A DNA stretch of 64,000 nucleotides from Pelagibacterium sediminicola. Lineage in GTDB: Bacteria > Pseudomonadota > Alphaproteobacteria > Rhizobiales > Devosiaceae. Below are positions 37,289 to 39,557 of this stretch, piece by piece. A program made the position numbers and the translations under genes. Below the pieces are notes generated by a model. The model was not told the origin of the DNA and did no database searches. It saw only the letters and a list, made by a program, of their open reading frames with translations. How positions within the stretch are numbered: the stretch's first letter is position 1; each line of letters starts with the position of its first letter. The stretch lies in contig NZ_QMEL01000005.1 in assembly GCF_003390885.1 (NCBI RefSeq), positions 124,001 to 188,000 of the forward strand, given 5' to 3'.

Positions 37289-37456
37289 ATGGCAAAGTCC
37301 AACACGATCAAGATCAAGCTGGTCTCGACCGCCGACACCGGCTTTTACTACGTGACCAAGAAGAACACCCGCACCGCGACCGAGAAGCTCTCGTTCCGCA
37401 AGTACGATCCGGTGGTGCGCAAGCATGTCGAGTTCAAGGAAGCCAAGATCAAGTAA
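37289..37456 (+). CDS. rpmG: Ribosomal protein L33
   Basis: L33 is a small protein of the large ribosomal subunit. The 55 residues begin [20 protein letters not shown] and end [11 protein letters not shown]. The zinc-binding cysteines of the C+ form are absent, as usual in alphaproteobacteria. The ATG at 37289 gives the family N-terminus; a longer reading adds 24 unrelated residues. A strong terminator follows. Confidence 0.97.
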
Positions 37457-37484
37457 GATCCGGCGCCTCATGAAGAAATACGGA

Positions 37485-37510
37485 AACCCCGCCTCGGCGG
37501 GGTTTTTCTT
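37485..37510 (+). terminator. Intrinsic terminator of rpmG
   Basis: The palindrome AACCCCGCCTCGGCGGGGTT is followed directly by TTTCTTTT. The GC-rich stem with a T-run 29 bases after the rpmG stop is a clear Rho-independent terminator. Confidence 0.92.
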
Positions 37511-37539
37511 TTGTCCTTGGAATATCGAGAAGAAGAAAT

Positions 37540-37677
37540 GGCTGGCCCGGAACGGCTGTCGAAGAGGCCACTCTTGGGTGCCGTGGCCGGGCCAGCCCCC
37601 TACGGTACAGGAGTTGCGGCGGACCTGAATTCCGTAGGGACATACTGAACAGAGATGCAGTTGCATCCGTTTCAGTA
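37540..37677. other. Run of three hairpins between rpmG and pleD; possible structured RNA
   Basis: This is the main content of the 316-base gap. Hairpin 1 (37540-37597) has 11-bp perfect arms GGCTGGCCCGG/CCGGGCCAGCC, then inner arms ACGGC/GCCGT (37552-37556, 37580-37584) and AAGAG/CTCTT around a GCCA loop. Hairpin 2 has arms CCCTACGG (37598-37605) and CCGTAGGG (37632-37639). Hairpin 3 has TACTGAA/TTCAGTA (37643-37649, 37671-37677) enclosing GATGCA-GT-TGCATC. On the minus strand hairpin 1 is followed by CATTTCTTCTTC, so it could terminate pleD. From 37678 to 37772 I see only AT-rich DNA and a small GTACGTATACGGTAC palindrome. Confidence 0.6.
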
Positions 37678-37772
37678 CGTATACGGTACGCGCTTGCCCC
37701 TATAAGGCCAAGTATACAATGGCCCGGCATCTGCTGTTTTACTATTAATAATAAAGAGTTAACCTTAATCGG

Positions 37773-39143
37773 TCAGGCCGCCTCGGAAACCACGCGGTTG
37801 CGGCCACTGCGCTTGGCGGCATAAAGCGCCATGTCGGCGCGCTTGATAACCGTTTCGGGCGTATCGTCCGCGAATTCGTTGAACGCCATCCCTGCGCTCA
37901 CCGTGATACCCAGCGGCGTATCGGGCCCGACCTTGAACTGCGCCTGGGCGATCGACTGCCGTACCCGTTCGGCGACGTGAAGCGCGAGGCTCGCATCGGT
38001 ATCGGGCATCAGAACGACAAACTCCTCGCCCCCGAACCGGCAGGCCAGATCCACGCCCCGGATATTGCGCTGGAGCCGCAGGGAAAATTCCTTGAGCACC
38101 GCATCACCCACATCATGACCGTGAGTGTCGTTGACCGCCTTGAAGAAATCGATATCGAGCAGCATGACAGCCATCGGGCGGTCCTGTTCCCTCGCTTTGG
38201 AAAGGCTCAGGGCAAGATGGCGCTCGAAATAGCGGCGGTTGTAGAGACCAGTCAGTTCGTCGATCACCGCCATCTGCATGGTCGAGGACAGGCTTTCGCG
38301 CAACTCGACCGTATAGCGATGCCGCCTGATCTGCGTCTTGACGCGTGCCGCCAACTCGTGGCGTTCGAGCGGACGCATGATGAAATCATTGACCCCGAGG
38401 TCCAGCCCGCGCACCACCTGCTGGCGGTCCTTGTCGTCGGCAATCAGGATGATGGGCAGCGAGCGGGTCTGGTCCGCCGTCCTGATCTGCGAGCAGACGC
38501 GCAGCGGATCGAACCCTTCGAGGGCCATGCTGACCAGCACCAGCTCGTAATCCCCGCCCGAAATCTGGAACACCGCATCGGAGGGCGTCGTCAGCACATC
38601 GACATTGTGATGATCCTGGAGATAGGCCCGGATGCGCTCGGCGCGCCCCGCTTCTCCCTCGATGACGAGGATGCGCCCCTGCGAGGCATCGGTCTCCTCG
38701 ACCGAGCGGGCGGCGTGTTCGAGCGCCAGTTGGTGGCTCGTATTGGCGCGGGCGCGCAACTCATCGGTCAGCACCTTGAGGCGGATGAGGCTCTTGACCC
38801 GCGCCAGCAACTGGATGTCATCGACCGGCTTGGTGAGAAAATCGTCGGCCCCCGATTCGAGTCCACTGACCTTGTCGGACGGCTGGTCGAGCGCGGTGAC
38901 CATAACGATGGGGATATGGGAGGTGCGCGCATCGGCCTTGAGGATACGGCAACACTCGAACCCGTCCATTTCGGGCATCATCACATCGAGCAGCACGACA
39001 TCGATGTCCTGACTGCGGCAGATCTCGATGGCCTGCTGGCCCGAAACTGCGGTGACGACCTCGAAATATTCCGCCATGAGCCGCGCTTCGAGCAGCTTCA
39101 CATTGGTGGGAATATCGTCAACGATCAGCACCCGTGCCGTCAC
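37773..39143 (-). CDS. pleD: Response regulator with GGDEF domain, PleD type
   Basis: PleD is a diguanylate cyclase that makes c-di-GMP when phosphorylated. The 456 residues hold a receiver domain with phospho-acceptor Asp53 (VVLLDVMMPEMDG), a second degenerate receiver (about 155-275), and a GGDEF domain with active site RFGGEEFVVLMP. The RGVD inhibitory site lies five residues before it. In Caulobacter it acts in the swarmer-to-stalked change together with DivK. It lies 39 bases downstream of divK, the usual divK-pleD operon. Confidence 0.96.
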   Translation of the reverse strand: MTARVLIVDDIPTNVKLLEARLMAEYFEVVTAVSGQQAIEICRSQDIDVVLLDVMMPEMDGFECCRILKADARTSHIPIVMVTALDQPSDKVSGLESGADDFLTKPVDDIQLLARVKSLIRLKVLTDELRARANTSHQLALEHAARSVEETDASQGRILVIEGEAGRAERIRAYLQDHHNVDVLTTPSDAVFQISGGDYELVLVSMALEGFDPLRVCSQIRTADQTRSLPIILIADDKDRQQVVRGLDLGVNDFIMRPLERHELAARVKTQIRRHRYTVELRESLSSTMQMAVIDELTGLYNRRYFERHLALSLSKAREQDRPMAVMLLDIDFFKAVNDTHGHDVGDAVLKEFSLRLQRNIRGVDLACRFGGEEFVVLMPDTDASLALHVAERVRQSIAQAQFKVGPDTPLGITVSAGMAFNEFADDTPETVIKRADMALYAAKRSGRNRVVSEAA

Positions 39144-39182: not shown

Positions 39183-39557
39183 CTACGCGGCCTTGCCAAT
39201 GTAGCTTTCAATCGTTTCCAAAAAGTGAGGCACGGAGATAGGTTTGGAGATATAGCCTTCGCACCCGCCCTCCAGGATGCGCTCTTCATCGCCCTTCATG
39301 GCGAAGGCCGTGACGGCGATGACGGGAATCGGCGCGAGATCCTCGTCTTCCTTGAGCCATTTGGTGACGACCAGCCCGGAAACCTCGGGCAACTGTATAT
39401 CCATGAGGATGAGGTCGGGCTTGTGCTCGCGCGCCAGATCGAGCGCTTCCATCCCGTTGCGGGTCTGGATGGTGCTATAGCCCCGCGATTCCAGAAGGTC
39501 ATGGAAGAGCTTCATGTTGAGCTCGTTGTCCTCGACGATCATCACTGTCTTGGGCAT
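39183..39557 (-). CDS. divK: Single-domain response regulator DivK
   Basis: DivK is an essential cell-cycle regulator in Caulobacter and relatives that modulates DivL, PleC and DivJ and, through them, CtrA. The 124-residue chain is a single receiver domain with acidic pocket Glu9-Asp10, phospho-acceptor Asp53 ([12 protein letters not shown]) and the conserved Thr/Lys ([17 protein letters not shown]). I chose the ATG at 39557 ([11 protein letters not shown]) because GGAAGTGG lies ahead and the family starts here. Confidence 0.95.

Follow-up and report, generated by a model that had tools for sequence, protein, structure and literature searches.

The closest described system is EcpR1 of Sinorhizobium meliloti, also known as SmelC291, SmrC10 and Sra33, an sRNA that slows the cell cycle under stress and is encoded between the divK-pleD operon and rpmG (PMC4414408). 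EcpR1 is backed by northern-blot evidence and is made in forms of 101, 142 and 171 nt, the longer of which include the terminator (PMC4414408). It has a GC-rich loop, UCCGCCGCAUCU, for which compensatory changes demonstrated pairing with the mRNAs of gcrA and dnaA (PMC4414408). An EcpR1 with two stem-loops has also been detected as a transcript in Methylosinus sporium 5, which belongs to another family; the available part of that report mentions no extra 5' stem-loop (PMC12403871). Our literature search found no paper that names EcpR1 together with Devosia.

The ecpR1 locus between pleD and rpmG

The DNA analyzed here (the window) is a stretch of 64,000 nucleotides from Pelagibacterium sediminicola, a member of the Devosiaceae (contig NZ_QMEL01000005.1, positions 124,001 to 188,000). 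The original prediction drew attention to three adjacent inverted repeats between rpmG and pleD; all three are found where they were placed, and they abut one another without any gap. Hairpin 1 is the 58-nt rod that had been described, with 11-bp, 100% complementary arms (37540-37550 and 37587-37597) and two inner stems. Hairpin 2 has the expected 8-bp stem (arms 37598-37605 and 37632-37639), along with an inner 4-bp CAGG/CCTG stem that had been overlooked. Hairpin 3 is nested, as had been proposed, but is longer than the 7 + 6 bp ending at 37677 originally given: its outer stem spans 10 bp (arms 37640-37649 and 37671-37680, with one G-U pair on the minus strand), encloses a 6-bp stem and ends at 37680. 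The 181-nt fold is exceptionally stable on the minus strand (z -5.20) and on the plus strand (z -4.96); since none of 200 dinucleotide shuffles is as stable on either strand, a chance origin, already considered improbable, is excluded.

On the minus strand, positions 37642..37535 match Rfam family RF02500 (Atu_C6, EcpR1) over the full length of the model (positions 1-113 of 113), including both of its stem-loops, at 60.2 bits (cmscan), only just above the gathering score of 60 bits. Orthology to EcpR1 does not depend on this thin margin, because the core (37535..37642, minus strand) is present as a single copy, other Pelagibacterium genomes score 65.4-76.8 bits, 131 of 136 Devosiaceae genomes contain RF02500 matches, and synteny is retained. 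A search of the window's genome for further copies, proposed at the outset, returned this one alone. In the window, hairpin 2 corresponds to SL1 (37598..37639), the target-binding stem-loop by homology, and hairpin 1 to SL2 (37540..37597); hairpin 3, here called SL0 (37640..37680), has no counterpart in the model. Among the options that the original prediction had left side by side, the structured small RNA is the right one. We consider it very probable that the three hairpins, with the mechanism discussed below, are best explained as the gene of a trans-acting sRNA, EcpR1, transcribed from the minus strand of the pleD-rpmG gap.

The neighborhood is that of S. meliloti ecpR1, with the gene order divK-pleD-ecpR1-(rpmG). 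Upstream and co-directional lies pleD (37773..39143, minus strand), whose product has response regulator receiver domains and a GGDEF domain in a protein search, preceded by a gene for a divK-like single-domain response regulator (39183..39554, minus strand), named by position and homology. The convergent neighbor is rpmG (37289..37456, plus strand), identified by protein search as encoding ribosomal protein L33. The pleD-sRNA-rpmG order is kept in nearly all relatives examined, and on the pleD side the position of EcpR1 is unchanged at almost all of the Devosiaceae loci studied. At three Pelagibacterium loci (L032, L033 and L043), rpmG was not found in the downstream stretch examined, and the pleD side of ecpR1 is intact; synteny toward rpmG is thus lost in some cases.

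The 5' stem-loop and the putative promoter region

SL0 sets the window apart from S. meliloti EcpR1 as an extra, long 5' stem-loop. The 44 nt that precede SL1 in Devosiaceae fold into a hairpin, and its sequence varies between genera and even between species. Because MAFFT alignment is unreliable between distant species, SL0 was assessed by shuffling and by half-swap chimeras instead of pair counting. Measured against dinucleotide shuffles, 53 non-redundant Devosiaceae leaders have a mean z of -2.18, as compared to +0.04 to -0.69 for six control windows further upstream; the signal in leaders of other Rhizobiales (n = 107) is much weaker, with a mean z of -0.73. Chimeras that join the 5' half of SL0 from one species to the 3' half from another fold at about -8.5 kcal/mol vs. 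a native mean of -13.7 kcal/mol, and in 44-47 of 50 Devosiaceae, vs. 63-66 of 106 other Rhizobiales, the native SL0 is more stable than the median chimera. The structure of SL0 is thus maintained across Devosiaceae while its sequence diverges.

Upstream of SL0, the minus strand carries a putative -35 element, CTTGGC (37707..37712), of the CTTG type common among relatives, and a putative -10 element, TACCGT (37683..37688), which is TAGGTT-like in relatives. The arrangement in the window, CTTGGC-18-TACCGT, resembles promoter-like pairs found at 51 of 70 Devosiaceae loci (mostly CTTGAG or CTTGGC, a 17-18 nt spacer and a TAGGTT-like hexamer), which end a median of 45 nt before SL1. From the position of this pair, a sigma-70-type promoter would direct transcription of the minus strand from a start site near 37676, at the base of SL0. 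For S. meliloti ecpR1, a predicted sigma-54 promoter proved non-functional. With a start near 37676, SL0 would be a hairpin at the extreme 5' end of the RNA, where it most likely slows 5' decay or is removed by processing.

SL0 could instead be a feature of the DNA or of the pleD 3'UTR, such as an inverted repeat bound by a protein or a hairpin that shields the 3' end of pleD mRNA from decay, leaving EcpR1 with SL1 and SL2 only. The start site of EcpR1 is a predicted one, SL0 is clearly maintained in Devosiaceae only, and the overexpression phenotype in S. meliloti does not require the 29 nt at the 5' end of the long form (PMC4414408), all of which would fit; yet the stem begins at the predicted +1, immediately downstream of the -10 element, and directly adjoins SL1, and pairing that is kept along the whole stem despite sequence change suits an RNA better than a protein-binding site on DNA. 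We regard this explanation as unlikely and favor SL0 as the 5'-terminal domain of EcpR1.

A separate element, GGTTAACTCTTTATTATTAAT, is present on the minus strand at 37738-37768, just after the pleD stop codon and upstream of the ecpR1 promoter. It is conserved in Pelagibacterium as GGTTAACCTTTCATTATTAAT, and GGTTAA is found there in 31 of 70 Devosiaceae loci; the element bears a loose likeness to a CtrA-type TTAA site, with the wrong spacing.

SL2, the 3' end and termination

SL2 is a terminator-like stem-loop supported by both its fold and covariation. In an alignment of 42 Devosiaceae, 8 of the 11 pairs of its stem have changes on both sides, a variability also seen in the SL2 stem of S. 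meliloti EcpR1. Over the whole structure, double changes occupy 24 cells and 99.8% of cells remain paired, a result that none of 500 shuffles equals; control pairings slid out of register leave 29.8-49.8% of cells paired. SL1 is nearly invariant in the alignment and gives no information either way on its pairing. The covariation test proposed in the original prediction finds SL2 covarying within Devosiaceae, and the hairpins are present in close relatives; on both counts the prediction withstood the attempt at refutation.

In the window, SL2 is followed on the minus strand by the U-rich AUUUCUUCUUCUC, and hairpin 1 is, as had been observed, the only one of the three with a T-rich flank (ATTTCTTCTTCTC, minus strand). 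This U-tract is missing in several relatives, e.g., L032, which has AACCCCCACC. The repeats were also correctly placed beyond the rpmG terminator, a hairpin at 37482-37507 that is likewise flanked by a T-rich stretch when read on the minus strand (TATTTCTTC); this hairpin is probably shared, so that the long ecpR1 form likely ends at 37507-37482, in line with the longer S. meliloti forms that reach a downstream terminator. The EcpR1 transcript would then consist of SL0, SL1 and SL2, with its 3' end either past SL2 or at the shared rpmG terminator, and SL2 would serve as a stabilizing, terminator-like domain or as the end of the RNA. Weak Rfam matches at the rpmG terminator (rsmX, rnk_pseudo, istR and others) fell far below their cut-offs and were discarded. 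At one locus (L039, G126), the stretch that separates SL2 from the terminator contains TTCAGGCCCGCCGCACTTTCT, which is similar to the loop region of SL1 and may represent a second copy in decay.

A double terminator region was among the original proposals, and the hairpins might do no more than terminate the transcripts that run toward each other from pleD and rpmG. These genes do converge, SL2 of the window is GC-rich and precedes a U-rich stretch, and its S. meliloti counterpart has been termed a putative Rho-independent terminator (PMC4414408). However, SL2 alone combines a GC-rich stem with a U-tract, which several relatives lack, and it covaries; neither SL0 nor SL1 has a U-tract, the SL1 loop is invariant over Devosiaceae, which a terminator would not need, and the locus matches an sRNA detected on northern blots in S. 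meliloti. Termination as the sole role is therefore rejected as very improbable. The remaining proposal, that the hairpins were left behind by a small mobile element, and the related idea that they belong to a dispersed repeat family could appeal to inverted repeats abutting in an intergenic gap, but a single copy in the window's genome and in each relative, a slot fixed throughout Devosiaceae on the pleD side and functional-type conservation of the SL1 loop refute both almost completely.

The SL1 loop and its predicted targets

As an EcpR1 domain, SL1 exposes an unpaired GC-rich loop, UCCGCCGCAACU (37612..37623, minus strand), which by homology would be the mRNA-pairing site. Eleven of its 12 letters are identical to the S. 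meliloti loop, UCCGCCGCAUCU, from which it differs by one substitution, U to A. The loop is invariant over the 42 aligned Devosiaceae, and the changed letter tracks the family: it is A in 70 of 70 Devosiaceae loci and U in 119 of 119 other loci, A thus replacing the U of other Rhizobiales. A pattern search among named genomes gave five A-form loops, of which three belong to Devosia, one to a Pelagibacterium and one to a Devosiaceae MAG.

The gcrA leaders of Devosiaceae contain a ACACGATATCTCGTGTGGCGGACC-type motif some 105-110 nt ahead of the start codon, close to where the site lies in S. meliloti (-109 to -95). The match GGCGGACC occurs within -160..-60 of gcrA in 24 of 29 Devosiaceae vs. 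0 of 1169 control windows, and the loop-gcrA duplex has a median of -23.4 kcal/mol, as compared to -14.7 kcal/mol in controls, by a simple scoring that ignores accessibility. The match is conserved in relatives, whereas the window's own genome departs from them: its gcrA site (L220, G000:C25) is TGTGCGGACC, one base short of the TGTGGCGGACC found in 12 of 12 other Pelagibacterium genomes, and its predicted duplex is weaker, at -19.1 kcal/mol vs. -23.3 kcal/mol in all 12. This shortening may be a real loss, in which case the target may be weakened here, or an assembly error. Nearly all Devosiaceae gcrA leaders (L200-L229 and L290-L297) also have a conserved small hairpin, ACACGA-TATC-TCGTGT, directly before the EcpR1 site, which may present or hide the site.

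We looked for co-variation of gcrA sites with the A/U change in the loop and saw none; binding to the Devosiaceae sites would even be slightly better with the U form. Outside Devosiaceae, comparison of genomes with and without EcpR1 shows no clear tracking of the gcrA match with EcpR1 presence. Target conservation does not extend to dnaA, which is an EcpR1 target in S. meliloti without being among the features that define the family model: simple duplex scoring of 28 Devosiaceae leaders revealed no positionally consistent loop site, and dnaA was thus not recovered as a conserved target in this family.

By analogy with S. meliloti, EcpR1 would accumulate under stress or in stationary phase, and its loop would pair with a gcrA leader site that lies about 105 nt ahead of the start codon, leading to less GcrA and a slower cell cycle. 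A more specific proposal, which we put forward tentatively and at somewhat less than even odds, is that EcpR1 of Devosiaceae is a three-domain variant, in which a fast-evolving, structurally maintained 5' stem-loop and a family-wide loop change together alter stability and the target set relative to the rhizobial sRNA, with gcrA kept and dnaA dropped.

EcpR1 of Devosiaceae is a modest addition to a known sRNA family, a lineage-specific elaboration consisting of SL0 and the loop change. Three anonymous hairpins can now be given a name, a strand and a role open to testing, and the range of EcpR1 is extended by Devosiaceae, with a dense comparative set of 70 loci. As the extra 5' stem-loop and the altered loop show, the Rfam model does not fully capture the Devosiaceae form; the same two features offer a natural experiment for learning which positions of the loop are important. 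The conserved leader site suggests that sRNA control of the cell-cycle regulator gcrA is old in the order.
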